DNA of 64,000 nucleotides from Lewinella sp. LCG006 (GTDB taxonomy: Bacteria; Bacteroidota; Bacteroidia; Chitinophagales; Saprospiraceae): the NCBI RefSeq assembly GCF_040784935.1, contig NZ_CP160680.1:921501-985500 (forward strand). The letters run 5' to 3'. The notes below the pieces were generated by a model. It was not told where the DNA came from and searched no databases. It saw nothing but the letters and a program-made list of their open reading frames with translations. Position numbers and translations under genes: made by a program. Shown here one piece after another: positions 3,242 to 26,896 of the stretch (position 1 is its first letter; each line of letters begins with the position of its first letter).

Positions 3242-6200
3242 CTAATCTATCACTATCATTTGCTTCGTTGCACGATAATCACCGGCCTGTCCGGCTTCGC
3301 CATTGGCCAGACGGGCTTCTACGGTGTAGCTTAGTACACCTGTAGCTCCCTGGATCATCTGCTTGGTCACGTTGATCGTGTTGTAGCCCTCTGCAAAATC
3401 GCCTTTGATGACGGTCAATATCCGTCCCCTGGCATCATTGATCGTTACTGTTACCGTTGCATACTGAGGCAGGCCTGCCTGAGCGGCAGGCAGGTTAAAC
3501 CCGATCAGGGTTGCCGCCGCAAATGGGTTGGGGGTGTTCTGGTATAGCGTAAAGACACTTGGCAAAGCGTCTCTGTCGCTGAACACCAACCCTAAGTCAA
3601 GCAGTTGTTCTCCCCTCTCAGGGCTGGGGTAAGCCTCCGCCACCGTGTAACGGCTGGTGATGCTCAGCGCTTCGCGCAGGGGCTGGTCTTCGGTTGCTTT
3701 CAACACCAGGCTGACCAGCACATCGTCGTGGGAGACTGATGTCAATCCGTCTCTACCGCCGTTGTGGTTCCAGCTCGTCGTGATGGCACCTTCGTTGGCG
3801 TAACGCAGACCAAAATTCTCCTCTGTGGCCTGTCCGTATTCGATGTCCACCAATTCCGCACCGCACAATTGCAATGTACCCTGGTAGCCTTCGATCTGGT
3901 TCAGGTTCTGCGCCCTCACGGCTACCGTGTAGGTATTGCCTGCCTTCATGTCAATGTCCTCTGCTTCGAGGTAGAAAATGCCGTTTAAAGTGCGATCATC
4001 ACCCGCCAGTGCATTCGCCTGCGCATTGCCATTGACATCACCCGTTTTCACACCAATGAAATCAGCATTCAGTTGGGCGGCTGACAGGTTATTGATATTG
4101 ATCAATTCCGGGAAAGTCTCCTGCCATGGATTGAGTTCATTCGGGAACACATAGCTCGCAGGGATAAACCGCCAGCTGGTGTTGTTGGTAAACTCGGTGG
4201 TAATGTTCAAGATCAGCTTACGAACCTGGATCAAATCCAGGGTAGTAATCGTCTCCGAATTGTTGACATCCGCAGCGAGACGTTGGTAAGGACTATCTAA
4301 TGGATCAATGTTCAGAATATGCTTACTGATCAAAACGATATCGAAGGTCGTCACCCCGTTTAATGGGTTGTCATTGTGATAAGGTGTTACCGTGTAATCT
4401 CCTCCAAGTTGCAGTACCTCGAAGTTGAAAGCCCCATCCGTACCAGTCGTCATGCTCATCTGTGCAGCACCATTGATGCTCACTTCTACCCCTTCGATGG
4501 TTTCGCTGGCGGTAGTCGTTATTACGCCGGCAATGGTTGCACCATCTGGTCCGTTACAGGAGTTATGTGGCTGTACCAAGACGTAAGTTTCACAATAGTC
4601 ATAGTTTCCTTCTTCGTCAAAAGCATAAACATAAACGACGGTTGTCTGATCATCATCCTCCGTTAATACCAATCCGGTATTTGTAGGGTGAGGTACAAAG
4701 TTGGGGTCAGCCTCCACTTCGGCAGCACGGTAAATAGCGTACTTCGTCACACGGGGCAAACCATCCGCATTGGTCAGTGGCCCCTGGCCGGTACAATCAT
4801 AGATGGGAGACCCTTCAAAGTCACTGGCCCAGATCGTCATAGCGCAGCCCCCTTCCGCCTGCGGCATCAGGGTAGCAGTTAGGCCGTTGATACAGATGGG
4901 CGCGGGACCTTTGCAGTCGATCACGTCGAAGACGAGGGTTTCACTCACCTGGTTTCCACAGCCATCTTCAAACAGTACCCGTACCGCGTGGTAGATGTTA
5001 TCGCCCATGGCACTGGTAATGATCGGGAAGCTACCGTCAAACGAGTAGGTGCCGTCACCATTGTCGGTGATATTGGCCATCACATTACCAGCAGCACCAG
5101 CTTCGACCAAGAACTCATTGGAGGTAATGTCACCATCACCATTAATGTCCACCGCAAAGGCATCCAATTCTGCGGATACGAGGCTGATGACCAGGTTGCC
5201 CGCACCGTCGAAGAGTTCGCACTCATCTGAAATCGTGAAAGGAATGCTTACTTGAGCTTCACAGTTGCCCGTAACATCACCAAACTGGCCGGGCTCCAGT
5301 GTAGGACAAAAATCCGTGGGGCCACCGTATTCCCCTACCGTTATAACCGGTACTGTAGAATCGTATACTTTCACAAACTGGGTGTAAATGTAGCGACCGT
5401 AGTTAGGTAATTGTGGCGAAGCACAATTGTCCAAATCAGAATCGCCGTCGCGGTCCGTGTGGTTGCGATCGATACACAAGCCAGCGGCACTGGTGTAAGT
5501 GATTACCGGGCGTTCGTTGCCTTCTACGGCACGATCCACTGGTAGCGCTTCCCCATCATCTTCCGTCATCCGAGCGAGTACGTAGCCAGTGTATTCACCA
5601 TCCCACAAACACCAGTTGATGACATCGTAGGTGATGCTGAGTTTGTAGCATTCATCGCCCGTAGCGGAATAAACCACAGGTTCTCCGATATTAACCGTCA
5701 GTACATCACAACCTTCTGCGGTCGTAATGATCGTTGGCACATTGGGATCGCCACAATCAGCATCCGCATCTTCGGGGAAGTCGATCACAAAATTGTGTAC
5801 TTCGGTAATCGTAATCACCTGGTTGCAGCTGTTCGTCGAACGGAACACTTCGTTGATATCGATAGCTCCGTTGGCGTTAGCATCACCGGCAGGGCGCAAC
5901 TGCCAAGCTTCGAAACGACGCGTAATCGTTCCCCATCCACAATCATTCACCTGGATATTGGGCGTACGCTCTACGATGGTATCCACAGCACAGTTATCGG
6001 TTCCTGTTGCTCCTCCGAAGATCGAGCTCATCATGGTCGACGTGGCCGCGAAATCTTCGTCATAAGCCGTCTGAATGTCTCCAGGGAAGGCTAGCGGAAG
6101 GTCGTTGCACGTCAAGGATACATCCTCTGGTGCGTAACAGTACGGATTGAGTTTATCCTCTGGCGTGATGACCATCCAACAGGTATTTTCATTACCGAAG

Positions 6201-9200
6201 ATATCCGTCGCTCTTAGCTCAATGGTAATCTCCTGATTGATATCACAGCAATAAAAGTCGATGTAACCAGCCCAGGGACTCCAGCGGTCAGCACTTTCGT
6301 CACAGGTGCCATCTTGCCAGTAATTTCGGCGAACGGCCAGGGTCACTGCGCTACAATTATCATTGGAACCTTCGTTGACATCAGCCGCCAGTATACGTGC
6401 TTCTCCGTACAGATCGTTGGCAATGTCACCACCGCCCAGCGATACGACCAATTGCTCGTTGCAGCTTGCTGTTGGGGCAATCTGGTCTTCCACCGTAAGG
6501 GTATAGCTACAGTTCGACAATTTATTACAGGCGTCTTTAGCTAGGTACCTAATGGTATGGTCTCCTAAATCTAATCCCGTAAGAATATAAAGGTTATCAG
6601 GACGGTACACCAAAGTATCCCCATCTACTTCCACCTGGTAGGTCACTGCGGAACAAGCATCAATAGACACCAGCGGTGGTACCAGGTAAGTCGCTTCACA
6701 GTTGAAGGGAGACACACTGATGGTTTCATCTGCCGGACAGACCAAGTTGGGGCCGTCCAAATCTTCCACCCTTATCGTTTGGGTAAATGTTCTTGCGCTG
6801 GCCAATGGATTAGGCAAACACTGGTTGATTACCCGCCACTGACGGAAAATGATATAGCTGTTTTCACAAATAGTGAAGACATCGTCTTCGTAGTTCATCG
6901 CGGCCGTACAATAACCCGCCGTGTAAAGGCTCTGCCCGTCAATCGTGGGAACGCCAAGGCTATCCACAGAGGTCAGGGAAGGATCATTGAGGACATCTCC
7001 ACAAGCCAAGACGGGATTATCAATACCATCATAGCTTTCCGGGAATATGACCTGATCGAGGTCGAAAGCAGCCATTACGATGTTTTGAACACATTGTGAA
7101 AAGTTGCCTACACCATCCGTTACCGTCCAGGTACGAGAGATGATCAAACGGGGCTCGCCACAGGTGCCATTATCTACCACCTCATCGTCAAATTCAATGG
7201 TCGCACCACCAGGAACACAAGAAGTCACCACAGGGTAACCCAAAGCATCGGGATGGGTAGACTCGATACAAGTCACCATCGCATCGGGCGGACAGATAAA
7301 TTCAGGTGCATCGTAGAAGTCAACGTGGACGTAACCCCAGCAGCACAATCCGGTAGCCGGATCACATATTTCTGCAACAATGGTTTGCCCCACAAATTCT
7401 TCTCCAATTACGGGAGATGTTGCAATTGGATCAACGCCCGTATCCGGCAAATCGGGATAGAGGGTCACAATGTAGTTATCGTAACAACGGTAATCATTGC
7501 CGCTAAGGAGCATATCCGCCGTGATCGTCGCCATACAGTCTGGTCCTAAAGAGACGTTCTGGTCGGCCACACAAGCGATATCACCCGTAGGGATGTGTTC
7601 CAACACCGTCAGGTTATAGGTACACTCCGTCACGTTGCCCGAAGCATCAGTAATGATCAGCGTAATAATCGTGTCACCAATAGGTACGGGCGTTCCCGGA
7701 GGGAAAGAACTCAGTACGTAGGCTGGGCAATTATCGTATTCGAAAATCGGTGTGGTCGGGTAATCATCGGTATCACACTCACCTGGATCAAGCTGAATCA
7801 CCAAATCCGGTGGACAAGTAATTTCAGGAAACTGGGTATCCAGCACCGTCACTTCAAATCCGCAGGTAGAGGTATTGCCCTGAGCATCCGTGAGGACGTA
7901 AGTCACTTGGGTCACCCCTACGGTAAAGAAGTGTGTGAAAGGTGTGTTCTCGGGAAAAATCGGCAAGGTTTCACTCACTTCTACCGTGCCATCTTCAAAA
8001 GTGATCGTGAAGGAAATGCTTCCACCAGCACAGTTATCAAAGAGGATTGACTGCAACCAGGTAAATTCTGCGCCACAAAGGTCGAGGTCATTCTCCAGGG
8101 TTTCATCGCCTTGGGTGTAAGCCTCGCGGGCGCTGATGTCCAGGCTCCAGGCCGTCAGGTTGGTAGAGACAGTACTTACTTGACCGTTGTGTCCGATTTG
8201 CAAAATCCAGGTTCCTTGAACTGCCTCGCCGTTGAAGGCTTCGATATTACCTACGGGTACAAAGGCCTCGCTGCTGCCCAGGTTGGCACAGTTATCGAGG
8301 ATAGGATCGGCCAATTCGGGGTCACCATCGAGGGTGAAATCAAAGACGTTGCTGCCAGGGCAAATCGCATCAAGAAGCTCAATGGCAGTTCCTTCCGGAC
8401 TGATCAGGGTAAAGGTCAGGTTACCAAAATCACCACCGCTACCCGCCAAAAGCAGATTCAAGTCAGCGATAGAGAAGGCATCCGTAACGATTAACGGGAT
8501 CTCTACACACTTACCGTAATCAATCACGGCAGCTGCGCCAGCGTAATTGATATAATTGCCGTAAAGGCCACAAATCGGATCTTCATCATCAGAGACTTCC
8601 ACGGTAAAGCTACATTCCTGACGCGTGGTTGGCTGCGCTTGAATAGCGGTATGCGCTCCATTGGGCACGGGTTGCGGAAGCATCGGATTCAAGGTACCGA
8701 TGGTGGTAGGAATACAAGCTTCACCCGGCACAAAATCCGCTGAGGTATTGGTATCCCAAACCGTCGTACGGACGATGCCACCACCGTAGACCGGGCCAAT
8801 ATTGCCCGACCAGTAGTCGGCCATGGTACGACCTGCAAGGTTATAGGCTGGAGGGCCAAAACTACTGATGTCGTAGTTGTTCATGATGGCAACATCCAAG
8901 ATGGAACGTGATAGGCTTATAATGTAAGCCGCAGGTTCATTTGCTGGTAAATCAACAGCATCAGGTACGTTGAAGAAGTGATCAGCTGGAGCATCCGTTC
9001 CATTACCAAAGTGAATGATCAATACACCACCCGGTTCCAATATCGTAAAGGTGGGAACGGCGTAAATTTCTTTCCCAGTAGCAAACACCCGCTCAATCTG
9101 CAAACAGCTTACATCGAGGGTCGCTGAATTGAAATTGGTAATTTCCAGGTAATCACCCGTAGTGGGGTTACCAGCCGTAGCAATGTAATCGGGCACGGGG

Positions 9201-12200
9201 ATCGTACCATCAACCAAGTCGCTAAGATCGTGGGTAACTTCTGTAATCAGCAACAAAGGCATATCCTGCAAGGAGTAGCTCACGGTGCTGGTACCTAAGT
9301 CGAAGAAGGTGCCGCTGGCATCATCCAGGCCATTGGCAATCTCATTGCCATCGGCATCATCAATGCGGTAAGCGACCGTCAGGTTAGGAATACAGTTGTC
9401 ATCAATATTAAACGGAGCGATGTTATCGACAATAGCTCCGCAATCACCTGGATCGCTATCGGTCACTACATTTTCAGGGCATTCCCAAGTAGGAGGTGTA
9501 TGGTAGTCGTTCACAATGATCTTCACATCACAGCGGGTAGTGTTACCAGACAGGTCAACGGCCTCGAAGGTGTTGATCGTAATCCCTACGGGGTAGATAT
9601 CGCCAGAGGTAAGTCCGGTATCATCCACTTGGGTCACCACGGGGATATCACAATTATCAACGGCCAACGGTAGGGAGTAATTCGCGTAAGCAGAACACCA
9701 GGTCGGTGGTGCGTCGACAATTACGGCTGGTTCCGGGCAGTTGATAAAGCGAGGTGGGATATCGTCGATAACGTTCACCTGGAAACTACACTCGACGTTG
9801 TTACCCGTCGCATCTTCAGCATAATAGGTAACGGTAGAGGTAAAGTTCGTAGGAGAATCATGCTGGAATTCGTACACTCCTCTGAACTGAGGAGACAGCG
9901 GATTCGTATTATCTGGATTTAGTAATCCAGTCAGGTCAAACGGTCCTTCGATACTGCCATCAGGATTAGTAATGGTGTAAGTGTAGAGAATGACATCACA
10001 GTTATCGGTAGGTAGGGTGTGGTCCCAAACGTACTGTCTTTCACAAAGGAATTCTTCGGTGGTCAAATTGACGGGACCGAGATCTTCACAAAGAATTTCG
10101 GGCACTTCCTCCGAATCGGGATTGTCACAAGAGCCGGAGCGGAAAAGTTCACAACCGCGCGCATCGACGACGGTGAAAGACCAGGTAGGCTGGGTGTAAT
10201 CTACGAGTAGGTTACCCAGGTCTTCAGAAAAATCAGTATTGTCGTAATTGGTCGTTATTCCGTTAGACCCCGTGAATGAACCTTGGTAGGTAAACTCTCC
10301 GTCCATATCATCATAAACGGCATCATTGTCTACATCCAGTCTCACTCCTGAGAATTGAATAGTGTAAGGCTCTAAGCCGCCACTTATTACACCGAGGTTA
10401 ACGACCCGATCGTTTTGTGCAATACATTCACACTCTGGCGACGCCATATCCAATGGCTGGCGCAACTCGAAAGTAGAGTGAACAATTTCCACACAACCAG
10501 ATAGGCCAAGCATGCCGTTTTGGACCATAAAGTCTTCCGGAGCATCAGGTAAAGCCAAGAGGTAGGAAACAGTAATAAAACCACTACCAGTGCCGGGGGT
10601 ATAAACACCATCAGGTGTAATAGAACCAACCGTTCCTACTGGAGCGCCGGTATCCGGAGCAAAAGCTGTAATCCCAAAACCACCCAAGGCTTCTCCTAAA
10701 TAAGGATTATTTTCAACTTGATGGTGATTGAGTACCGTACCATCAGGCAGGGTGATCACCAGATAGTTAGAGAAATCTAGCTGCGTATCGTTATTGGCTT
10801 CCAGACAAATTTCTGGCAAATCCAGGTCAAAGGCAATTCCTTCAAAGAAGTCTTCGACGTGAATTTGAGAAAGACAAGTAAAGGTATTATTATCAGTATC
10901 GGTAACGTGTAGGGTGACCAGATTGTAGCCGGTTTCCGTACAGTTAAAATCGACTGAAAGGGTTGGTGTATCTGCTCCTTTCCCAACCAGAATGCTCTGA
11001 ATACCGCAGTTATCGGTACTTCCTCCGTCAATATAAGGAAGGTCTGCATTCATTTGCTCAGCAGCATAAACCGTCACATTTCCCGTATTGTCCAACTGAA
11101 CGTCGATATCAATACAACGGGGGCTAGGAGGCTGTTCGTCCTGTACCGTAAGGGTAAAGCTACAGGTTTGGGTTTCCATGACGCCATCTACCGTACTCGT
11201 TACCGCACCATCATTGTCGAGATCAACCATCATGGTATACTCGATGGTACTCACTCCCACCGGGAAGGTTAATCCACTGGCATCATTATGAATACCACGG
11301 TTGGCTAAAGAATAAGCAGTGGTGGTAGTTGTATTGGGAAGACCACTAGCGGCTGGATAGGTGATATCGTAATTCACAACGGTAGCACAACTTAAGCCTT
11401 GAACAGGAGCTAAGCCTGTAACGTTAGCGGTACAAAGGTCAGCATCCGCTTTTACGGTAATATTTCCTGATTCATTCCCAGGGCAAGCAAGCATTGGGTC
11501 TCCAGCAGAAACCACCACATCGAAGGTGCAAATACCCACCGTACCAGAGCACGAATAAGCGGTATAGATGATGGTATAAGTTCCGGGATCAAGGTCAGAA
11601 CCAGGAAGTGGTCCTGCCGTTTGGTAAAGGCCTGATTCCAAAACTTCCCCATTTATATCCAAATTGACGGGATCAGGTAGATTGATGGGGTCATCAACGT
11701 TGTAGTACGTCAATGCCATACCATCAGAATTGGTAAAGCCTTTATATTCCAGGGTGCCGATACTACAACCGTCAAAAGCAACGGGGATCGACCAGTTGGC
11801 CTCCGTATCACAAACACCATCTTCGGAGAAGACGTAGCCGTTCTCCGGGCAATTCGAAAACACCGGTACAGAATTGTTATAAACGGGAATCTCCACCGTT
11901 TCTTCATCTGAGAAAACCAGGTCCACATTACAGGAAGCCGCTGCCAGGAGGTCTTCAATAATGATACCCACAATAGGAATAGCACCGATCGGCAGTAATT
12001 CTAATAAATTGATAGATTCGCTGGTTACATCTCCGCAGGTACCGGCCGCATCAAAAGGCCAGGAGGTTACATTGCGAAGTGTGATCGTACCTGATGGTCC
12101 TTGAATATTATTAGGAACACAAGCCTGGCCAGGATAAGCAGTAGAACTGCTGGATGCCGGAAAAGTGTATTCTTCAACAATCTGGTCAAAATTTCCATCA

Positions 12201-14893: not shown

Positions 14894-14914
14894 GAGATGT
14901 AAAGGTGTGGTCAT

Positions 14915-15297
14915 GAGTTACAGGTTGAGTTGTACTATTACGATTTGTTGTTAGCCTTTCAAACGGTCTAAGGGGAAAACATTACTCGCCAAAAAAGAAG
15001 AGGGCCAGTATCAAAAATCTATTTCCAAAATTGAATAGAGGAAGTAAACATCAGAAATGATGCTGTCAAAAGTGTACGCAATACGGGAAACAGTAAGCTG
15101 TAGGCAGCTAATGCAAAAGGTCGTCGGACTGCCTACCAGAGGTAAAAATACCTATTAAACTTTCACTAATAAGACCTTTGCGCTGAATGGAACCAATAGT
15201 GCGACAAGCGGTAAATTACAAAGGAGGAGCTTGAAATTGAGTTGGACTTAACCCGTAGATAATTCTGTAAAGTGACTTTAAAATAATGCTTATTTGA
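14915..15297. other. Intergenic region upstream of giant gene 1
   Basis: This 383-base gap carries the leader of giant gene 1 (minus strand) and the 3' flank of the LytTR gene. I see no gene and no clean TAnnTTTG box. A weak inverted repeat, GTAGGCAG (15100-15107) with CTGCCTAC (15129-15136), is a possible operator but is too short to be convincing. Because a LytTR factor lies immediately next to it, this is where direct-repeat LytTR sites would be expected; none was obvious by eye. Confidence 0.4.
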
Positions 15298-15636
15298 CTA
15301 CTCTAGCTTAGTAATTAACTCTCCCAACTTTCTTTTACTATTTCTATTAATTGGTATTTGGTGCCTGCTAATGGTAATAAAATCTTCCTGAAAACTGATA
15401 GACTCAATTAAAGACAGCTGAATCAGGAAACTTCGATGAATGCGCATAAAACCAAAGGGGGCAAGTAGCTCCGATAATTTATTAAGACTGATACGGATAA
15501 TAAATAGTTCTTCCGTCTTTAGACAACAACTCACGTAGTCGCCGCTGACCTGCAAAAACATAATATCGCTGATCGCTACTTTTTCGTAAACACCTTTGCG
15601 TTTTAGAAATAAAAATTCATTGAATATGGTGGACAT
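15298..15636 (-). CDS. Stand-alone LytTR DNA-binding regulator
   Basis: This 112-residue protein consists almost entirely of a LytTR DNA-binding domain, with no receiver domain. The family pattern is visible in order: the domain opening with ISDIMFLQVSGDYVSCCL, then IIRISLNKLSELLAPFGFMRIHRSFLI, and the closing ISRHQIPINRNSKRKL. The FMRIHRSFLI element and the following strand are the usual DNA-contacting part. Family members regulate surface, virulence and polysaccharide genes. It lies between the two giant surface-protein genes, transcribed in the same direction, so control of one or both is a natural inference. With no receiver domain, how it would sense a signal is unclear. Confidence 0.85.
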   Translation of the reverse strand: MSTIFNEFLFLKRKGVYEKVAISDIMFLQVSGDYVSCCLKTEELFIIRISLNKLSELLAPFGFMRIHRSFLIQLSLIESISFQEDFITISRHQIPINRNSKRKLGELITKLE

Positions 15637-15880
15637 GTAGGTTTTTTAGTACTGATACTTCAAAATCAGACTTGGACTTACCCTAAGCGTAGGACAAGAT
15701 GATGAAAGGTATGGATAAATACTGCCAATAAATATTTTACCTAACAAAAACCCTCTAATCAACACTTTACTACCCCCAAAGCATGACTACACTTATAGGA
15801 CCATCAAATTAGACCAAATAAAAAACGGCGGCACCCCGAAGGATGTCGCCACCTGTAATCGTATTTATTACGTTGGGATA
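15637..15880. other. Intergenic region between giant gene 2 and the LytTR gene
   Basis: This 244-base gap holds the terminator of giant gene 2 at its left end and must contain the start signals of the LytTR gene on the minus strand. No clear promoter box was found. The terminator implies that the LytTR gene is expressed mostly from its own promoter rather than by readthrough. Confidence 0.5.
15820..15850 (-). terminator. Terminator of giant gene 2
   Basis: On the minus strand a GC-rich hairpin (TGTCGCC stem partner of GGCGGCA, one wobble pair) is followed by GTTTTTTATT, a good intrinsic terminator. It starts about 31 bases after the stop of giant gene 2. It is nearly identical over about 35 bases to the hairpin at 30433-30466 downstream of secA. 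Confidence 0.8.
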
Positions 15881-18800
15881 TTAATCCACCACAATCATCT
15901 GCTTCGTCGCCCGATAATCACCGGCCTGTTCGGCTTCGCCATTGGCCAGACGGGCTTCTATCGTGTAGCTCAGTACGCCAGTAGTGCTATTGATCATCTG
16001 CTTGGTGACGTTCACCGTGTGGTAGCCTGCGCCGTAATCGCCTTCAATTACCCGGATCAGTGCTCCCTTTGCATCACGAATGGTGATAGTAGCGGTAGCT
16101 GCAGCGGGTAAATCAAAGCCAATCATGGTACCTTCCGTGAAAGGATTGGGTACATTCTGATAGAGAACGAATTCGCCTTGTCTGTGCGCGGTCCCAGAAA
16201 ACGAAAGTCCGAAATCCGTCAACGTACCTTCGCGGTAAGCCTCCGCAATCGTGTAACGGCTATTCACTTGCAGTAACTCACTCAACTTGGCATCCTCACT
16301 GGCACGAAGCACCAGGCTGAAGAGGTGATCGGTGGTGGTGGTGGTGGCGACGAGATGCATCGCGTCGCTATCGCCGCCGTTGTCGTTATAACTCATGGTT
16401 ATGGCACCTTCGTTCACATACCGCAAACCAAAGTTTTCACTGGTAGCAGCTCCGTATTCCATGTTGATCAGTTCCATGCCGATAAATTGTAGCGTTCCCT
16501 GAAAACCTTGAACATTGGCGAGGTCTTCCCCCGTAAAGGCTACCGTGTAGGTATTGCCTGCCTTAAGGTCAATATCCTCTGCTTCGAGGTAGAAAATGCC
16601 GTTTAAAGTGCGATCATCACCCGCCAGTGCATTCGCCTGCGCATTGCCATTGACATCACCCGTTTTCACACCAATGAAATCAGCATTCAGTTGGGCGGCT
16701 GACAGGTTATTGATATTGATCAATTCCGGGAAAGTCTCCTGCCACGGATTGAGTTCGTTCGGGAACACATAGCTCGCAGGTATGAACCTCCAACTGGTGT
16801 TGTTGGTAAACTCGGTGGTAATGTTCAAGATCAGCTTACGAACCTGGATCAAATCCAGGGTAGTAATCGTCTCCGAATTGTTGACATCCGCAGCGAGACG
16901 CTGGTAAGGACTATCTAATGGATCAATGTTCAGAATATGCTTACTGATCAAAACGATATCGAAGGTCGTCACCCCGTTTAATGGGTTGTCATTGTGATAA
17001 GGCGTTACCGTGTAATCTCCTCCAAGTTGCAGTAACTCGAAGTTGAAAGCCCCATCCGTACCAGTCGTCATACTCATCTGTGCAGCACCATTGATACTCA
17101 CTTCTACCCCTTCGATGGTTTCGTTGGCGGTAGTCGTTATTACGCCGGCAATGGTTGCACCATCTGGTCCGTTACAGGAGTTATGTGGCTGTACCAAGAC
17201 ATAGGTTTCACAATAGTCGTAGTTATCTTCTTCGTCAAAGGCGTAAACATAAACGACGGTTGTCTGATCATCGTCCTCCGTTAATACCAATCCGGTATTT
17301 GTAGGGTGAGGTACAAAGTTGGGGTCAGCCTCCACTTCGGCAGCACGGTAAATTGCGTACTTCGTCACACGGGGCAAACCATCCGCATTGGTCAGTGGCC
17401 CCTGGCCGGTACAATCGTAGATGGGAGACCCCTCAAAGTCACTGGCCCAGATCGTCATAGCGCAGCCCCCTTCCGCCTGCGGCATCAGGGTAGCAGTTAG
17501 GCCGTTGATACAGATGGGCGCGGGACCTTTGCAGTCGATCACGTCGAAGACGAGGGTTTCACTGACCTGGTTTCCACAGCCATCTTCAAACAGTACCCGC
17601 ACCGCGTGGTAGATGTTATCGCCCATGGCACTGGTAATGATCGGGAAGCTACCGTCAAACGAGTAGGTGCCGTCACCATTGTCGGTGATATTGGCCATCA
17701 CATTACCAGCAGCACCAGCTTCGACCAAGAACTCATTGGAGGTAATGTCACCATCACCATTAATGTCCACCGCAAAGGCATCCAGTTCTGCGGATACGAG
17801 GCTGATGACCAGGTTGCCCGCACCGTCGAAGAGTTCACACTCATCTGAAATCGTGAAAGGAATGCTTACTTGAGCTTCACAGTTGCCCGTAACATCACCA
17901 AACTGGCCGGGCTCCAGTGTCGGACAAAGATCCGTGGGGCCTCCATATTCAGGGACGGTTATTACTGGTACCGTTGAATCGTATACTTTCACAAACTGGG
18001 TGTAAATGTAGCGACCGTAGTTAGGTAATTGTGGCGAAGCACAATTGTCCAAATCAGAATCGCCGTCGCGGTCCGTGTGGTTGCGATCGATACACAAGCC
18101 AGCGGCACTGGTGTAGGTGATTACCGGGCGTTCGTTGCCTTCTACGGCACGATCCACTGGTAGCGCTTCCCCATCATCTTCCGTCATCCGAGCGAGTACG
18201 TAGCCAGTGTATTCACCATCCCACAAACACCAGTTGATGACATCGTAGGTGATGCTGAGTTTATAGCATTCATCGCCCGTAGCGGAATAAACCACAGGTT
18301 CGCCGATATTAACCGTCAGTACATCACAACCTTCTGCGGTCGTAATGATCGTTGGCACATTGGGATCGCCACAATCAGCATCCGCATCTTCGGGGAAGTC
18401 GATCACAAAATTGTGTACTTCGGTAATCGTAATCACCTGGTTGCAGCTGTTCGTCGAACGGAACACTTCGTTGATATCGATAGCTCCGTTGGCGTTAGCA
18501 TCACCGGCAGGGCGCAACTGCCAAGCTTCGAAACGACGCGTAATCGTTCCCCAACCACAATCATTCACCTGGATGTTGGGCGTACGCTCTACGATGGTAT
18601 CCACGGCACAGTTATCGGTTCCTGTTGCTCCTCCGAAGATCGAGCTCATCATGGTCGACGTGGCCGCGAAATCTTCGTCATAAGCCGTCTGAATGTCTCC
18701 AGGGAAGGCTAGCGGAAGGTCGTTGCACGTCAAGGATACATCCTCTGGTGCGTAACAGTACGGATTGAGTTTATCTTCTGGCGTGATGACCATCCAACAG

Positions 18801-21800
18801 GTGTTCTGGTTGCCAGAAGCATCCGTTACCCGCAGTTCAATGGTGATCTCATTGTTGATATCACAGCAGTAGAAGTCAATAAAGTCGCCCCAAGGGCTCC
18901 AATCCTCAAAATTATCAGTACAAGTACCATTTGCCCAGTAATTACGGCGAACCTCCAGATCGACAGTGCTACAGTTATCACTGGAACCTTCGTCAACATC
19001 AGTAGCATGGATGCGGGCCTGACCAAAAACTCCGTTCGCTACATCACCACCACCAATCGACACATTTAGCTCATCATCACAAATCGCGAAGGGTGCAATC
19101 TGGTCTTCTACCGTCACGATATAGCTACACTGGGAGCGAATCCCACAAGCATCCTGGGCGAGGTAAGTAATGGTATGATCTCCCCTTTCCAGACCAGTAA
19201 CCAGGTATTGGTTATTGAACTGAAAATCAAGGGTATCATTATCCACTTGAACAATATAGGTAACCTCCGAACACGCATCGATAATATCCAACAAGGGTAT
19301 TTGGTAAGTAGCCCTACAGTTAAATGGCGAAACACTGATCGTTTCATTTTCCGGGCAGTTCAAATCAGGACCGTCCGAATCTTCTACCCGGATAAGCTGG
19401 GTAAACTCCCGAACATCTGATAAAGGATTAGGCAGGCACTGATTGACGACACGCCAGGTTCTGAACAAGAGGTAGCTGTTGTCACAAATGTAAAAGATCT
19501 CGTCGTTATAGTTGATCGCCGCCGAACAGTAGATCGCTGCATACAGGTTGGTCCCATTGATGGTGGGATAACCCAAACTGTCGGGCGAGGTGAGGCTAGG
19601 GTCAACAAGTACTTCCGAACAATCCAGAACGGGGTTCGTTATTCCGTCGTAGTTTTCTGGAAAAATGATCTGATCCAGATCAAAAGTCGCCACCTCAATG
19701 GTCTGGACGCACTGGGCAGAATTTCCTACCGCGTCGGATACCGTCCAAGTGCGATCAATTACAAAACGAGGTTCGCCACAAGCTCCGTTATCGGTGAGCG
19801 CATCAACATGGGAGATGATGGCACCGCCAGGAACACAGGAAGTAACCTCGGGAAAGCCCAGCAAGTCTGGCCCCGTAAGATCAGTACAATTAACCACCGT
19901 ATCCGAAGGACAGATGAATTCAGGAATTAACTTGTATTCTATGTTCACAAAACCCCAGCAGCATTCACCGGTATCGGGGTCACATATCTCCGCCACGATG
20001 GTCTGTCCTACGTAATCTACCGTTACAGTGGGAGAAGTAGGTATAGGGTCGAAACCACTGTCGGGAGGGCCAGGATAGAGCGTCACAATGTAATTATCAT
20101 AACAGCGGTAGAGGTCCCCGGTGAGGATCATTTCCGCGGTGATCGTCGCTTCACAATCTGCTCCTAGGGAGACGTTCTGTTCGCCGATACAAGCTAAATC
20201 TTGGGCCGTTTCAAATTCCAGCACCGTCAAGTTATAGGTACAAGTCGTTTCATTACCCGAAGCATCTGTGATGATTAGCGTGATGGTCGTATCTCCGATG
20301 GGCACCGGGGTTCCCGGCGGGAAAGAACTGAGTACGTAATCCGGACAGTTATCGAATTCAAAAACGGGGGTAGTTGGGTACTCATTGGTTTCACATTCTC
20401 CCGGCCCTAATTGAATGACCTGGTCATCTGGACAAGTGATTTCCGGAAACTGGGTATCTAGTACAGTGACCACAAATCCGCAGGTGGATACGTTACCCGC
20501 CGCGTCGGTTAGGGTGTAAAGAACCGTGGTCTCTCCTACCTGGAAGAAGTAGGTAAACTCGGTATTTTCAGGAAAGATAGGTAGAGTCTGATCCAATTCG
20601 AGGGTACCATCCTCAAAGGTGATCGTCAATTGTACCGTACCGCCGGGGCAATTATCAAAGAGGATCGGATGCAGATAGGTATATTCTGCCCCGCATAAGT
20701 TCAGGTCATTCTCTAAGGTTACATCCATTTCGTCATAAGCCTCGCGAGCGCTGATGAGCAAGCTCCACGCATCAAGGATAGCGAGCTCGGTGGTGACCGT
20801 TCCGTTGTGGCCAACCTGTAAGATCCAGTCGCCCTGGGCTTGTTCTCCATTAAAGGCTTCGATATCCCCCGTAGGTATCAGTGCCAGTCCATCCCCCAAA
20901 GTAGCACAGTTGTCCAAGAAAGGAGCTGCCAGCTCGGGATCACCGTCAAGAATAAAGTCGAAGGCCGTACTTCCAGGGCAAGCTGCTACTAGCAACTCAA
21001 TGGCTGTTCCTTCCGGACTGATGAGCGTAAAGGTAAGGTCCGAGAAGTCGCCCGCGTTCCCTGCAAGGAAAAGGTTGAGATCGGCAATGGTATAGAATTC
21101 GTCAACTGTTACAATAGACTCCACACATTCGCCGTAAGCAATGGTTTCGGAAGCTCCGGGGTATTCCTGGTAGTCACCATAAAGCCCGCAGACCGCTTCC
21201 TCCGCATCAACGATGGTAACCGTGAAACTACACTCTATGCGGGTCGTATGCTGGGCCTGGATCGCCGTTTGCGCACCATTGGGAGTAGGCTGGGGCAAAC
21301 TGGGGTTGAGCATGCCAATAGTAGTAGGTAAACAAGCCTCCCCCGGCTCGAAATCACTGGCGGTATTGGTATCCCAAACGGTTGTCCGCACGATACCACT
21401 ACCGAAGACAGGGCTGATGGTTCCCGACCAATAGTCAGCTACTGTTCGTCCGGCAAGATTGTACTGCGGAGGAGCCAATCCGCTGATGTCGTAACCGTTT
21501 AGCACAGCGATATCCAATATCGAGCGCGACAAGCTTACGATATAAGCAGCCGGATCAGTGGCTTGCAAGTCTGCCGCACCGGGTACATTGTAAAAGTGAT
21601 CGGCAGGACTATCGGTGCCATCCCCGAAATGGATAGTCAGAACACCACCCGGCGCAAGAATAACGCCAGTAGGAACGGCAAATAGTTCGCTCCCGGCCGC
21701 CGAAAGGCGTTCGATCATCAGGCAGCTTACATCCAGGTTCGCAGCATTGAAGTTGGTAATTTCCAGGTAGTCTCCCGTCGGTGGATTGCCTGCGGTAAAC

Positions 21801-24800
21801 GGAGGTACTGGAAGGGTACCATCTACCGGGTCACTCAGGTCATGGGTGATCTCCGTAATCAGCAGCAGTGGCATATCCTGCAAGGAATAACGTACCGTAC
21901 TGGTGCCCTGCGCGAAGAAATTTCCGCTGGCATCATCAAGGCCGCTAGCCACTTCGTTACCCATTTCGTCTTCAATACGGTAGGCAACCGTCAGGTTATC
22001 GGGACAATTGTCTTCAATATTAAAGGGTGCAATACCATCAACGATGGCTCCGCAATCACCAAAGTCATTGTCATCAACCACATCGCCCGGACATTCAAAG
22101 CTTGGAGGGGTATGATAATCATTGACGATGATCTTCACATCACAAGTAGTAGTATTACCCGTAGCATCTACCGCTTCAAAGGTGTTAATAGTGATACCCA
22201 CCGGGTAGATATCGCCAGAGGTGAGCCCGGTATCATCGATTTGTGTTACGACCGGGATATCACAGTTATCTTCGGCTAATGGCAAGGAGTAGTTAGCGTA
22301 AGCACTGCACCAGGTTGGTGGGGCATCTACAATAACTGCCGGCTCCGGGCAATTGATAAAATAAGGCGGATCGTCATCGGTAACCGTTACTTCAAAACTG
22401 CACTGACTGAAATTGCCTACGGCATCTTCCGCGTAGTAGGTAACAGTAGAGATGTTCTCCGTAGGACTAAAATGTTCAAAATCGTAAGTAGCAAAAAATT
22501 GGTCGGGAAGCGGATTTGTAATATCCGGATTCAACAAGGCAGTGATATCAAAAGGCCCGGCAATTGAACCATCAGGGTTGGTAATCGTATAAGTATAAAG
22601 GATGACATCACAATTATCCGTCGGTAAGGTGTGTTCCCAAGTGTACTGGGCTTCACAGACAAATTCATCCGTTGTAAGGGCTACGGGGCCCAGGTCTTCG
22701 CACAAAATTTCGGGAGTGCCATTTTCGTCATCGTTATCACAGGAACCAGAACGGAAGAGTTCACAGCCACGCGCATCGACAATGGTAAACGACCAAGTAG
22801 GTTGAGTATAGTCCACCAAAAGGTTGCCTAAATCTTCGGTGAAATCGATGACATCAAAGCCAGCCTCCTCATCATAAGTAAACTCACCGTCTGCATCATC
22901 AGCAACACCATCACTGTCCACATCCAATTGAACGCCACCGTACTGAATAGTATAAGGTTCAAGGCCACCAGTAATTTCACCCAGGTCAACTACTCTATCA
23001 TTCTGTACGATACACTCACACTCTGGAGACTCCATATCAAGCGGCTGGCGCAGTTCAAATACATCTTGTACCAGAATGTAACAACCCTCGAGGTTGAAAA
23101 TTCCGGGTTCTACCTGCCCAGCGATACCCAGTACATAAGTTATGGTGACAAAGCCGGTACCCGTCCCAGGGGTATATTCTCCAGTCAATGGATTAATGTA
23201 GCCTGCATCGCCTGGATTGTCGGGGCTGGTGCCAACGGTGGTGCCGGAGCTAGGAGGGCCACCAGGAGAACGCACGAAAGTTGAAATACCAAACACACCA
23301 ACGACATCGTCCATATCGAGCACCTCATCCATGTGAGTGGTAGTCGTACCATTAGGCATAGCGATAGTGAGGTAGTTGGCAAAATTGAGCTGCTCTTCAT
23401 TATTGGCTTCAAGGCATAATTCAGGAACATCAAGGCCAACCTCGAATCCTTCAAAGTAGTCTACAACGGTTACCAGGGATAAACAGCGACGTTCGTTGCG
23501 CTCGTCCGTTAAAGGATCACCATCGTGCTCAGCGGCATCAAGCACTCTGACAATCACCGTGTTTTGGCCCTCTTCAAAACAGTCGAAAGTTACAGCATCA
23601 CCGAAATTCTCTACAACATCGGCTTTGGATACTTCAATCGTTAACTCACCAGGGCAATTATCGACACTACCTCCATCAAGGTCAGTTGCGAAAACGGTAG
23701 CACTTCCCGTTTTGTCAAGCTGCACTGTAAAATCACTACAGTAAGCAGTAGGCTTCTGGTGGTCTTCTATCGTAATGGTGAAGGTACACATCTGCGTTTC
23801 TTGCGACTCCCCGCAAGGAATAGCAGGATCATTCGCATCGATGACACCATCGCCATTCAAATCAGCAGTCATTGTGTAAGTAACGGTGGTCGTGCCTAGT
23901 TGAAAATCAGTGCCACTAGCATCATCTGTTCCACTGGAAGGAACCGCACCATTATCAGCCGTCCAGGTGATCGTCGTATTACACTCCAAACCTGCCAGCG
24001 GTGCAATGCCGGTTACAATACGAGAACAAGCATCTACGTCGTTTCTCAGGGTCAAATCTCTTGGGGTAACCAAGATCGGGTCACCAGGTACCACATTGAT
24101 ATACAACGCGTGGATCGTCTGGATTCCGTTACAGGCTGTTGCCTGGTATTCAACACGGTAGCCAGCAACCATTAATGGTGTGTAGTCATTGATGTCAACA
24201 ACGGTTGCGTTTCTTTCGTCCTCACAGTCCTGCGGATAATCCATGATCACAAAATCACCATCTGAATTTTGGCAAATTGGATATTCATTACCGTCAGCAT
24301 CTACATACACTTGGTTGCCGTAAGCATCCACGTAATTGACCTCCCCTGGCGAAGGCTCAAGAATCGAGCCGGAGGTAGGCCCTGATAATTGCACAATATT
24401 TTCAATAAATTCACCGGTGCAGCCATCAACAGCTAATGGAATATCCCAGTTCACAGCTTCACCACAGGCGTCGCCAGTAGCAAAAGTGTATTCTCTTCTG
24501 GGGTTAGGAAATCGTGGTGCTTCATCATTTTCTACCCTGATTGGTAAATCGTACATAGCGGATGGAGCTATATTAACATTAATCCCTGCAGAGGTAAGTG
24601 CTTGTCGAATGATTGGGCCAGCAACAGGAATAAAATCAATAGGCAGTATCTCCAGCAAATCAACCCCATCAGGTGTCACACAGGGTGAGTAAGGCGCAAT
24701 TACGGACGCAGTTACGTTACGAACAGTGATGATACCTTCTCCATCTACATTGTTATAAACAAATCCACTACCATCTCCAGAACCGTCCCCAAGGATACCT

Positions 24801-26896
24801 GCGCCACTTAGCACCTGATCAAAAGCTCCATCGCCATCCGTATCTGCCCAAACGACGGATACGGCAGTTTCCTCTACGATTTCCTGCACAGGATCAACAA
24901 TGAGATCTCTAACCGTTGCTGAACATACGGTAGTTGATTCACCAGTAATCGGAATATCAAAACTAAAGTCGAGAAATTCCAAAGGCTTCCATGTGCTTGT
25001 TGTAATACAAGGTCTAACGCCTAGTATATTGATACAAAATCCTTGCCCAGGACCACAATTCCCACAGAAACCCGTAGGATAAGGAATCGCTACATCATCC
25101 ACGAGATCACAGACGTCTCCAACGCCGGAGATATTATCCGCTATGGGTGTATCCAACGCATCGCCTTCCGGAAAAAAGTCATTATTTAAACCAAAATCCC
25201 AACTTACAGCAATGCCTTCATCATCACAGGTAATGATTGGATCCTCGGTACCACCCGCATCAAAATTGTTCTCTTCAACGTAATCGCCCGTTACTACGGA
25301 TGCCTCGAAAAAAGGTATTAGTTCGCTACCCAGATCGAACGTAACGTTAAAAATGGTGAGGGAGATGAACGAATTAGTAAGAATGGGGCAAACATCGGCC
25401 GCTGGATTAAACTCCAGGCAATCTTCATTACAGCCGCTGCTGGCGATCGTAATGGTTGTGCAGCTTTGAACAGCACAGTCCGTACCTTCTGTACAAGTAC
25501 CGGCGGGGGTATTGATGGATTCTTCGTAGCAAATCTGTAAGCTCCCCAATAAGCTGGTTGGGTTGGACACCGTGATTACGGGGCTATCCGTAGTTTCATC
25601 GGTGACACTAACGCTTAGGTTGGTTCCGGTAGCTGTCCAGAGCCTGCTTAATGTTCCTGTGTAAGTAAATTCGGAAGGACTCACCTCAACAATCAGGTCA
25701 GAATCACCGTCCCAACAAGTTGTAGAAGAGGTGATGGAAAAACTAGGTGTAGGTGTTTCGGGAAAAAAGACCATGGCATCAGCCGTTAAAACTTCCCCGA
25801 CCCCACTACAGTTGCCAGGGTTTTCCAGTGTATAGGTAATATCGACACAACCAAAACCAGAGAAAGAAAGATAGTTGCCACCTAATATTTCTGCATCAGG
25901 AGTGCTTGTGGTAAAGGTCCCACCGGAGGTGGTTCCGGCAACAAACAATTCGTTCAAATTATAATTCCCGGTCACCCCACAGCTTACGACTCCATCCATC
26001 AAAGTGGCAACGGGAACTTCATATACCTGAAAGAGAAATTGATCGACCAGGTCAGAATTATCGTCACAAATGAAGTTGTAATTTATAGCATTGATGGCGT
26101 CCCGGTCAAGGGTACTGATCTCAATTTCGGACGCAGATAAATCCAGTGTTCTTCCGTCTACCAATACGCCATTACCGGAAAAGTTATCAAACGCACTGGT
26201 AGCAGTTTGGCCACTTACATAAGTCCCCAGATCTACATTGGGTTGGGCCTGACAAAAAACAGGTATTGGGTCATCCTCGATAGCATAACTGTAGTTGGCA
26301 GATATCGCAGCTACTTGTGCATTAAAGTTATTCGAACCGGTATTAAGGTTGATCCCTGGCGACAATATCTGGGGATACCAATCGGTGCCCAGGTTATCGT
26401 AGGTTACCGTAATCTGTCCATCCGCTAAGGCGGTGCTTGCTTCCGCAATGGTTAGGGTGAAAGTCTGGCAATAAGGATCTGCAGCACTAGTGGCCATTTC
26501 GACATTTACGGTAACGGCACTGCTTCCTTCGATCGTCACATCAAAATTTTCATCAGCGCCATTCATGTCCCCCCAAAAGCAAATCTCGATGTCTAAATCA
26601 GCATCCAGCACAACACCAGCCAAACCACCATCGCCAACGGAAAAAGTATTTCCCGGTATGGTATAGCTGAACGAGGTACTTGCCGAGGCGGGATTATCGG
26701 GGGTGATATCGGTTCCATCGTTCTCAAAGTTCTGGTTAGTCACAGTTCCCTGAGGTTCTTCCCAAGTGCAGGTATTTTGTGCCTGAAGTAAATTAATGGA
26801 ACAGGTAAACAGGAATAGAAATAGAGTGGTAAACAGGTGTTTATGTCCTGCGAATAAATCACAAGAAACACCACGCGATGGTAGTATTACGTTCAT
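15881..26896 (-). CDS. Giant T9SS-secreted multidomain surface protein 2
   Basis: This 3,671-residue paralogue of giant 1 starts at ATG 26896 with a signal peptide (LFTTLFLFLFTCSINLLQAQ). The N-terminal 1,100 or so residues are diverged from giant 1 but have the same Cys/Asp-rich beta style. From there the order is the same, at approximate residues: HYR-like modules, a lamin-tail-like domain (about 1670-1810, LLLITEITHDLSD), a P domain (about 1900-2055), HYR with FPEITCPDDQVIQL, the shared near-identical tract (about 2700-3453), dockerin-like DVNNSETITTLDL (near 3335) and a type A sorting tail (LYQNVPNPF near 3575 to the end, finishing YRATKQMIVVD). T9SS cargo anchored at or released from the surface is the likely fate. 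It lies 192 bases downstream of the response-regulator gene, which suggests direct control. There is no catalytic domain I can recognise; the P domain lacks an attached protease. Confidence 0.9.
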   Translation of the reverse strand: MNVILPSRGVSCDLFAGHKHLFTTLFLFLFTCSINLLQAQNTCTWEEPQGTVTNQNFENDGTDITPDNPASASTSFSYTIPGNTFSVGDGGLAGVVLDADLDIEICFWGDMNGADENFDVTIEGSSAVTVNVEMATSAADPYCQTFTLTIAEASTALADGQITVTYDNLGTDWYPQILSPGINLNTGSNNFNAQVAAISANYSYAIEDDPIPVFCQAQPNVDLGTYVSGQTATSAFDNFSGNGVLVDGRTLDLSASEIEISTLDRDAINAINYNFICDDNSDLVDQFLFQVYEVPVATLMDGVVSCGVTGNYNLNELFVAGTTSGGTFTTSTPDAEILGGNYLSFSGFGCVDITYTLENPGNCSGVGEVLTADAMVFFPETPTPSFSITSSTTCWDGDSDLIVEVSPSEFTYTGTLSRLWTATGTNLSVSVTDETTDSPVITVSNPTSLLGSLQICYEESINTPAGTCTEGTDCAVQSCTTITIASSGCNEDCLEFNPAADVCPILTNSFISLTIFNVTFDLGSELIPFFEASVVTGDYVEENNFDAGGTEDPIITCDDEGIAVSWDFGLNNDFFPEGDALDTPIADNISGVGDVCDLVDDVAIPYPTGFCGNCGPGQGFCINILGVRPCITTSTWKPLEFLDFSFDIPITGESTTVCSATVRDLIVDPVQEIVEETAVSVVWADTDGDGAFDQVLSGAGILGDGSGDGSGFVYNNVDGEGIITVRNVTASVIAPYSPCVTPDGVDLLEILPIDFIPVAGPIIRQALTSAGINVNIAPSAMYDLPIRVENDEAPRFPNPRREYTFATGDACGEAVNWDIPLAVDGCTGEFIENIVQLSGPTSGSILEPSPGEVNYVDAYGNQVYVDADGNEYPICQNSDGDFVIMDYPQDCEDERNATVVDINDYTPLMVAGYRVEYQATACNGIQTIHALYINVVPGDPILVTPRDLTLRNDVDACSRIVTGIAPLAGLECNTTITWTADNGAVPSSGTDDASGTDFQLGTTTVTYTMTADLNGDGVIDANDPAIPCGESQETQMCTFTITIEDHQKPTAYCSDFTVQLDKTGSATVFATDLDGGSVDNCPGELTIEVSKADVVENFGDAVTFDCFEEGQNTVIVRVLDAAEHDGDPLTDERNERRCLSLVTVVDYFEGFEVGLDVPELCLEANNEEQLNFANYLTIAMPNGTTTTHMDEVLDMDDVVGVFGISTFVRSPGGPPSSGTTVGTSPDNPGDAGYINPLTGEYTPGTGTGFVTITYVLGIAGQVEPGIFNLEGCYILVQDVFELRQPLDMESPECECIVQNDRVVDLGEITGGLEPYTIQYGGVQLDVDSDGVADDADGEFTYDEEAGFDVIDFTEDLGNLLVDYTQPTWSFTIVDARGCELFRSGSCDNDDENGTPEILCEDLGPVALTTDEFVCEAQYTWEHTLPTDNCDVILYTYTITNPDGSIAGPFDITALLNPDITNPLPDQFFATYDFEHFSPTENISTVTYYAEDAVGNFSQCSFEVTVTDDDPPYFINCPEPAVIVDAPPTWCSAYANYSLPLAEDNCDIPVVTQIDDTGLTSGDIYPVGITINTFEAVDATGNTTTCDVKIIVNDYHTPPSFECPGDVVDDNDFGDCGAIVDGIAPFNIEDNCPDNLTVAYRIEDEMGNEVASGLDDASGNFFAQGTSTVRYSLQDMPLLLITEITHDLSDPVDGTLPVPPFTAGNPPTGDYLEITNFNAANLDVSCLMIERLSAAGSELFAVPTGVILAPGGVLTIHFGDGTDSPADHFYNVPGAADLQATDPAAYIVSLSRSILDIAVLNGYDISGLAPPQYNLAGRTVADYWSGTISPVFGSGIVRTTVWDTNTASDFEPGEACLPTTIGMLNPSLPQPTPNGAQTAIQAQHTTRIECSFTVTIVDAEEAVCGLYGDYQEYPGASETIAYGECVESIVTVDEFYTIADLNLFLAGNAGDFSDLTFTLISPEGTAIELLVAACPGSTAFDFILDGDPELAAPFLDNCATLGDGLALIPTGDIEAFNGEQAQGDWILQVGHNGTVTTELAILDAWSLLISAREAYDEMDVTLENDLNLCGAEYTYLHPILFDNCPGGTVQLTITFEDGTLELDQTLPIFPENTEFTYFFQVGETTVLYTLTDAAGNVSTCGFVVTVLDTQFPEITCPDDQVIQLGPGECETNEYPTTPVFEFDNCPDYVLSSFPPGTPVPIGDTTITLIITDASGNETTCTYNLTVLEFETAQDLACIGEQNVSLGADCEATITAEMILTGDLYRCYDNYIVTLYPGPPDSGFDPIPTSPTVTVDYVGQTIVAEICDPDTGECCWGFVNIEYKLIPEFICPSDTVVNCTDLTGPDLLGFPEVTSCVPGGAIISHVDALTDNGACGEPRFVIDRTWTVSDAVGNSAQCVQTIEVATFDLDQIIFPENYDGITNPVLDCSEVLVDPSLTSPDSLGYPTINGTNLYAAIYCSAAINYNDEIFYICDNSYLLFRTWRVVNQCLPNPLSDVREFTQLIRVEDSDGPDLNCPENETISVSPFNCRATYQIPLLDIIDACSEVTYIVQVDNDTLDFQFNNQYLVTGLERGDHTITYLAQDACGIRSQCSYIVTVEDQIAPFAICDDELNVSIGGGDVANGVFGQARIHATDVDEGSSDNCSTVDLEVRRNYWANGTCTDNFEDWSPWGDFIDFYCCDINNEITIELRVTDASGNQNTCWMVITPEDKLNPYCYAPEDVSLTCNDLPLAFPGDIQTAYDEDFAATSTMMSSIFGGATGTDNCAVDTIVERTPNIQVNDCGWGTITRRFEAWQLRPAGDANANGAIDINEVFRSTNSCNQVITITEVHNFVIDFPEDADADCGDPNVPTIITTAEGCDVLTVNIGEPVVYSATGDECYKLSITYDVINWCLWDGEYTGYVLARMTEDDGEALPVDRAVEGNERPVITYTSAAGLCIDRNHTDRDGDSDLDNCASPQLPNYGRYIYTQFVKVYDSTVPVITVPEYGGPTDLCPTLEPGQFGDVTGNCEAQVSIPFTISDECELFDGAGNLVISLVSAELDAFAVDINGDGDITSNEFLVEAGAAGNVMANITDNGDGTYSFDGSFPIITSAMGDNIYHAVRVLFEDGCGNQVSETLVFDVIDCKGPAPICINGLTATLMPQAEGGCAMTIWASDFEGSPIYDCTGQGPLTNADGLPRVTKYAIYRAAEVEADPNFVPHPTNTGLVLTEDDDQTTVVYVYAFDEEDNYDYCETYVLVQPHNSCNGPDGATIAGVITTTANETIEGVEVSINGAAQMSMTTGTDGAFNFELLQLGGDYTVTPYHNDNPLNGVTTFDIVLISKHILNIDPLDSPYQRLAADVNNSETITTLDLIQVRKLILNITTEFTNNTSWRFIPASYVFPNELNPWQETFPELININNLSAAQLNADFIGVKTGDVNGNAQANALAGDDRTLNGIFYLEAEDIDLKAGNTYTVAFTGEDLANVQGFQGTLQFIGMELINMEYGAATSENFGLRYVNEGAITMSYNDNGGDSDAMHLVATTTTTDHLFSLVLRASEDAKLSELLQVNSRYTIAEAYREGTLTDFGLSFSGTAHRQGEFVLYQNVPNPFTEGTMIGFDLPAAATATITIRDAKGALIRVIEGDYGAGYHTVNVTKQMINSTTGVLSYTIEARLANGEAEQAGDYRATKQMIVVD
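16538..18802 (-). repeat. 2.26-kb near-identical tract, copy 2 (inside giant gene 2)
   Basis: This is the partner of 3920-6184 in direct orientation, with no gaps and about 98% identity by eye. The encoded protein of about 755 residues covers late HYR-like modules, the carboxypeptidase-regulatory-like module and the dockerin-like repeats, but not the sorting tail, which is diverged. Recombination between the copies would delete the LytTR gene and fuse the giants. Confidence 0.9.

Follow-up and report, generated by a model that had tools for sequence, protein, structure and literature searches.

Two giant genes of Lewinella sp. LCG006 are almost identical over one internal stretch and strongly diverged on both sides of it, which raises the question of whether they arose by a recent duplication or whether an older pair has exchanged that stretch by gene conversion. 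The window, by which we mean the whole 64,000-nucleotide stretch of DNA analysed, sits in a single 7.51-Mb contig of the host genome (G000), and all of its features described below lie on the reverse strand.

The shared tract of genes A and B

Gene A (3242-14914) is an open frame of 3890 aa with HYR domains, a dockerin-like domain, a cohesin-like domain, and a T9SS-style tail; its paralogue, gene B (15881-26896), is an open frame of 3671 aa. Alignment of the two genes places the shared tract at 3920-6184 in A, with its ungapped counterpart at 16538-18802 in B, 12,618 positions away throughout. The 2,265 bp contain 50 mismatches and 0 gaps (97.8% identity), in agreement with an earlier note on this DNA, which had described two paralogues of about 11 kb sharing 2,265 gapless bases at about 98% identity. 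In A, the tract comprises residues 2911-3665, namely the end of the stalk, a CarboxypepD_reg-like domain, the entire dockerin-like domain, and the first ∼40 residues of the cohesin-like domain. Both edges are abrupt: (i) at the edge nearer the 3′ end of A, there are 28 mismatches in 64 bases (3856-3919) versus 3 in 3920-4019, and (ii) at the other edge, there are 0 mismatches in 6159-6184 versus 18 in 6185-6234, with identities of 58-73% per 100 bp just beyond the tract (6200-7500). Moreover, 13 of the 50 mismatches crowd into an island at 5303-5357 that is only 76% identical. Edges and island bear out the sharp edges and the dense mismatch cluster near 5310-5360 that the note had singled out. 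This island is probably an unconverted remnant or a seam between two events.

The flanks are diverged, as had also been claimed, with A-B amino acid identities of 30-40% at the N-terminus (A residues 1-1400), 67-73% in the middle (1401-2910), and 60% in the tail (3666-3890). A codon comparison inside the tract yielded a dS of 0.086 and a dN of 0.005, as against saturated synonymous sites 5′ of it (pS 0.80, dN 0.40) and a dS of 1.66 with a dN of 0.34 on its 3′ side; synonymous divergence is thus not uniform along the pair.

A third gene, L047, from the MAG Bacteroidetes bacterium Spr20G08_bin78, provides a reference for these distances. Across the tract, A and B are 99.2% identical in amino acids, whereas each is 72.5% identical to L047. 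Elsewhere, A is closer to L047 than to B over residues 1-1400 (50-64% versus 30-40%) and 2401-2910 (72% versus 67%), equally close to both over residues 1401-1900 (73%), and closer to B over residues 1901-2400 (62% to L047, 71% to B) and in the tail (53% and 60%). In five of the seven non-tract segments, A-B is no nearer than A-L047, and the middle region of this profile does not cleanly date the A/B duplication. Since a replaced tip in B could also produce the N-terminal contrast, we rested the case on the entire profile: A and B are far closer to each other than to L047 in the tract, but not in most other segments, which argues for conversion rather than recent duplication. Outside the tract, the A/B pair appears to be of roughly the same age as A and L047. 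A recent duplication of the pair was rejected on the dS contrast together with this profile, and a silent-site run test (pair p 0.0001; 0.002 globally corrected) likewise favours the conversion tract that the note had read here. No clear donor emerged for the A/B event, with A siding with more paralogues at 30 of the 50 mismatches, B at 18, and ties at 2.

Anatomy of the C-terminal module

From its N- to its C-terminal end, the module comprises an Ig/HYR-like stalk, a CarboxypepD_reg-like domain (under the Pfam cut-off), a dockerin type I domain, a cohesin-like domain, and the tail. The dockerin type I domains of A (4208-4354; G000:C1:925708-925854) and B (16826-16972; G000:C1:938326-938472) score 27.0 bits each, and whole-protein scans give 18.8 bits for A and 20.7 bits for B, below the Pfam cut-off of 22.9 bits for PF00404. 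This domain is above the cut-off in 15 of the 20 family members described below, with L009-L013 at 21.0 bits, below it.

An AlphaFold2 model of the cohesin-like domain of B (16157-16660) has a mean pLDDT of 78, and all 31 of its Foldseek matches in the PDB at E ≤ 0.001 are cohesin-bearing entries (TM by query 0.40-0.53), which suggests that this domain adopts a cohesin fold. The corresponding domain of A (3539-4042), located by alignment to B, matches the domain profile with 202 bits, A itself being part of that profile; a long C-terminal model of A was discarded as too poor (pLDDT 65, generic Ig-like matches). The Pfam cohesin domain PF00963 (cut-off 24.1 bits) found no match in A, B, L015, and L025, and among six homologues of other genera it is above the cut-off in four (L081, L108, L110, and L112) and below it in L080 and L103. 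Among 12 tails scanned with TIGR04183 (cut-off 23 bits), five pass (L009, L010, L015, L022, and L026), five fall under the cut-off (B at 14.3, L013, L016, L021, and L025), and A and L011 have no match.

Some members also carry small, mostly palindromic, in-frame inserts, which are distributed over the cohesin-like domain and the tail in a mosaic pattern (window 3285-3310, 3468-3483, 3610-3626, and 3734-3751; tails of L009-L021). The core of one tail insert (A 3285-3310, B 15924-15949) is present in 7 of the 21 genes tabulated. As a cause of conversion, the palindromic inserts were rejected because L015, L016, L022, L023, and L024 are converted and lack all four tabulated inserts. Further, a genome-wide count of the AGAGACG..CGTCTC class gave 10 hits in forward and 12 in reverse orientation, some outside the family, versus 0 and 0 for a reversed-pattern control; the inserts may be dispersed short palindromes that got into reading frames and were then spread by conversion.

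Homogenisation among the dispersed paralogues

The description of A and B as twin genes did not hold up. Locus reading and a profile of the C-terminal domain identified 20 uninterrupted paralogues in the genome, A and B included, which span 1686-6563 aa and are dispersed around the chromosome, along with 10 weaker matches to the profile elsewhere. The remote member L027 was excluded from every module count, and L026 additionally from the run test. The predicted layout of the family is a gene-specific tip, an Ig/HYR-like stalk, CarboxypepD_reg-like, dockerin-like, and cohesin-like domains, and a type A T9SS-style tail. According to Pfam, the tips differ between members, with a reprolysin domain in L018, CUB in L015, choice-of-anchor I in L022, TSP3 in L021, an ice-binding-like adhesive domain with GEVED in L011, GEVED repeats in L013, a P-domain in L024, DUF11 with HYR_4C in L012, and a cadherin-like domain in L009. 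For L014, L016, and L023, the N-terminal part has no Pfam match, although NCBIfam assigns L023 a choice-of-anchor R domain.

The modules under these tips, which are 2.3 kb long in A/B and roughly 3-5 kb in other clusters, share long exact matches. In this one genome assembly, in which polishing could exaggerate exact identity, the longest is 2060 bp (L010/L011, 3.3 Mb apart), followed by 1484 bp (L014/L015), 1156 bp (L022/L024), and 1004 bp (L013 with both L010 and L011); these loci lie 0.5-3.5 Mb apart. Genes on opposite strands have exact matches of up to 593 bp within the module (L021/L024). In 300-bp windows, identity changes along the module from 50-60% to 97-100% in L016/L017, from 100% to 57% in L014/L015, and from 93-100% through 71% to 99% in L009/L010. 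A silent-site run test, which assumes that silent codons are exchangeable along the module, detected longer runs of agreement than chance would give (global p < 0.05) in 18 of 171 pairs, A/B among them (517 silent polymorphic codons, 19 genes, 20,000 permutations). It supersedes a run with 2,000 permutations, in which 20 of the 171 pairs sat at the floor of the test and the Bonferroni level was unreachable. A and B thus appear to be one case of a genome-wide process, and the note's suggestion that a shared scaffold is kept while the N-terminus differs finds its counterpart in a homogenised module beneath tips with different domains. The cohesin-like and tail region of A/B is not homogenised (60% aa identity).

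In principle, copies could also be kept alike without recombination, by strong purifying selection that acts on the protein or the codons of the module, and the C-terminal protein is indeed conserved across species (mean column identity 62% over 22 sequences). However, silent sites are homogenised within the genome and less so toward an orthologue, and the non-coding DNA 3′ of the stop codons is likewise homogenised: L020 is 96-99% identical to L015, L017, L018, and L022 over 188-195 bp of it, reaching 99.5% over 188 bp with L015 and 98.5% over 195 bp with L017. On this silent-site and non-coding evidence, constraint at the protein level was rejected, and the probability left to it is close to negligible.

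An assembly or polishing artefact is a natural concern, as near-identical repeats are hard to assemble and, for all seven tip orthologues read in two related genomes (G001 and G003), the contig stops within or close to the shared part, as repeats would cause, which is indirect evidence. Against this stand the single 7.5-Mb contig, the structured distribution of the 50 A/B differences, and the recurrence of the pattern in other assemblies: copies in the L. cohaerens draft are 95.2% alike on separate contigs (L044/L055 over 1632 bp; L061/L045 over 848 bp), and the assemblies of two further genomes, G127 and G021, contain long matches. We regard an artefact as extremely unlikely.

The note had also raised phase variation. 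Under programmed phase or antigenic variation, recombination in the module would switch tips, or would delete the gene that lies between B and A (15298-15636), which encodes a LytTR DNA-binding domain protein of 112 aa (PF04397, 3.1e-15), and so fuse the front of B to the tail of A. Such a deletion is possible in geometry, the 2.3-kb direct repeats that flank the LytTR gene being 12.6 kb apart, and the family has many members. Nevertheless, the 20 copies are uninterrupted frames, the tips lie outside the homogenised part, and five tips are kept at 77-88% in G001. Moreover, with the A tract as query, which leaves aside the upstream half of the module, no short high-identity cassettes were found, matches outside the 20 genes being 64-72% identical (40 of 48 candidates scored); silent partial donor copies were thus not seen in this search. 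Phase variation therefore finds no backing here, and we consider it very unlikely. A LytTR gene as a general companion of the family was rejected on a search of 25 sources, in which, apart from the window, only L017 (25%) and L062 (21%) had matches, both remote.

One pair departs from the rule that the exchanged part is the C-terminal module and not the exposed tip, in that L014 and L019 have copied tips. The two share 4 kb of upstream DNA at 99.7% and match exactly over the first 1092 bp, yet between their modules the difference in a 300-bp window can be as high as 22%. Despite this tip copy, L014 equals L015 over 2.1 kb save one base. The segment duplicated between L014 and L019 takes in an upstream repeat-protein gene, a 306-aa gene, and the tip, and its two copies lie 3.6 Mb apart in opposite orientation.

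Orthologues, relatives, and known systems

The L. cohaerens orthologue of L021, namely L054, allows tip and module to be compared between species, in a profile that covers this one gene. Against L054, the tip of L021 is 80-87% identical and its module 81-90%; against four local paralogues, L021 behaves differently: it is 37-53% identical in the tip, and at least 90% identical in 36 of 40 module windows of 250 bp, the lowest being 82% (L018). Paralogues within the genome are also closer than orthologues in the A/B/L047 comparison and in a tree of 29 modules, with L025/L046 and L026/L048 as exceptions. This tree, built without L052-L054 and L056-L061 (partial or remote), has three clades restricted to G000 (A+B; L009-L013; L014-L024) and a separate L. 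cohaerens clade of L044, L045, and L055; as a tree of recombining sequences it is only a summary, and its deeper forks are partly unresolved. L025 and L026 lie outside the homogenisation, each pairing with its orthologue.

These data bear on the alternative that modules were duplicated recently and that their N-termini were then replaced or diverged fast. In its favour, only 5 of the 15 tips searched have a match of at least 75% in G001, which is of the same genus (L010, L011, L021, L022, and L023), the N-terminus of A has no match there, and that of B has one, at 34%. The recent long duplication in L014/L019, which takes in tip and upstream genes, also fits this alternative. However, tips with orthologues stand behind alignable upstream DNA at all six loci tried (for the pair L046/L025, G000 has an additional 8.3 kb), and the part that changed in the profiled L021 case is the module. 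Further, partners switch within modules, and the middle regions of A and B are about as distant as those of A and L047. We judge replacement or fast divergence of the tips to be improbable as the general explanation, and conversion with concerted evolution of the C-terminal module under divergent tips to be nearly certain on the sequence evidence.

Of the 150 genomes of the family, 116, G000 included, contain homologues of the tract (E ≤ 1e-30). Homogenisation was looked for in six of them, at the loci listed in the homologue search and in drafts that may hide near-identical copies. In G127 and G021, two genomes of one genus with eight loci each, exact matches between copies reach 611 and 3420 bp, respectively, and copies are 79-98% identical over at least 3.4 kb. 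Most pairs begin to match only at some distance into the genes (L086/L087 at 7779/1368), but in L079/L083 the similarity sets in close to the gene start, and L090 and L092 stand apart from the others at 70-75%. In G118, G058, G026, and G034, which belong to four other genera and have 5, 6, 5, and 4 loci, copies are just 70-81% alike where they match, and in G118 no match between copies reaches 150 bp.

Under the conversion reading, the module is copied repeatedly between paralogues, presumably by the machinery of ectopic homologous recombination, so that the modules evolve in concert within a genome, whereas each tip keeps its locus and either diverges or turns over. The tips may be binding or enzymatic heads on a module whose interfaces would have to stay compatible. 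Conversion may be no more than a consequence of long homologous DNA, or a uniform connector may be under selection; the second option is favoured by the pairing of dockerin and cohesin and by the finding, in the accessible part of a study of long-lasting prokaryotic concerted evolution, that 22 of 26 concerted genes act in stable complexes (PMC6053082). That the cohesin-like domains have diverged between A and B counts against a strict requirement for compatible interfaces. That the module is a common dockerin/cohesin platform for assembly and anchoring, kept compatible by conversion, is a proposal that we hold tentatively; conversion-driven concerted evolution combined with such a platform is, taken as a whole, quite probably the best explanation. 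A bolder version is a plug-in surface network of about twenty giants with unrelated heads and the same dockerin-cohesin-sorting end, in which any could dock onto any and conversion would keep the connector universal, with no constraint on the divergence, gain, or loss of heads; we consider this doubtful.

Parts of this pattern have precedents. As far as the consulted portion of the source describes them, rgpA, kgp, and hagA of Porphyromonas gingivalis have identical adhesin-region repeats within and between genes, a conserved C-terminal domain, and a differing N-terminal part (a protease in two, none in HagA), and their automated assembly failed (PMC5266723). The present family resembles them in its common C-terminal part and differing N-termini, but that system, as presented there, consists of three genes with cleaved-adhesin domains, whereas here 20 genes carry a module of Ig/HYR-like, dockerin-like, and cohesin-like domains under varied tips, with an orthologue comparison. 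Recurrent conversion that keeps paralogues closer than orthologues is also what the above study reports in the sections available to us, and the share of its genes in stable complexes fits an assembly reason; unlike the genes named there (tkt, dxs, ftsH, fla, and mtrA), the unit here is one module common to otherwise different giant proteins (PMC6053082). Giant extracellular protein genes shaped by recombination are likewise described for giant1-5 of Apilactobacillus kunkeei in the excerpt at hand (PMC12863079). The literature search returned no report of the present giant-protein family among the matches listed.

The locus thus offers a large natural case of bacterial concerted evolution at the level of domains, with one protein part homogenised over about twenty scattered loci and the other gene-specific, and a testable reason for it in a shared assembly interface. 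Converted modules may explain why draft assemblies of relatives are interrupted at these genes, and a tree built from entire giant surface proteins of such genomes would blend two separate histories.

The dockerin type I domain adjoining a predicted cohesin-like fold recalls the cohesin-dockerin modules of cellulosomes; unlike in cellulosomes, a single chain with a sorting tail contains both domains, and it does so in 20 paralogues whose heads are adhesive or protease-like, as judged from sequence and a model. Two further loci carry both kinds of domain. The remote member L027 (12046-17751) ends at its dockerin-like part, and directly behind it a second frame, 311 aa long, contains the cohesin-like part (G000:C1:5022863-5023396), which suggests a split or interrupted gene. 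Outside the window, an open frame of 13,315 residues has a cohesin-like domain and a dockerin match (G000:C1:1517631-1518122).
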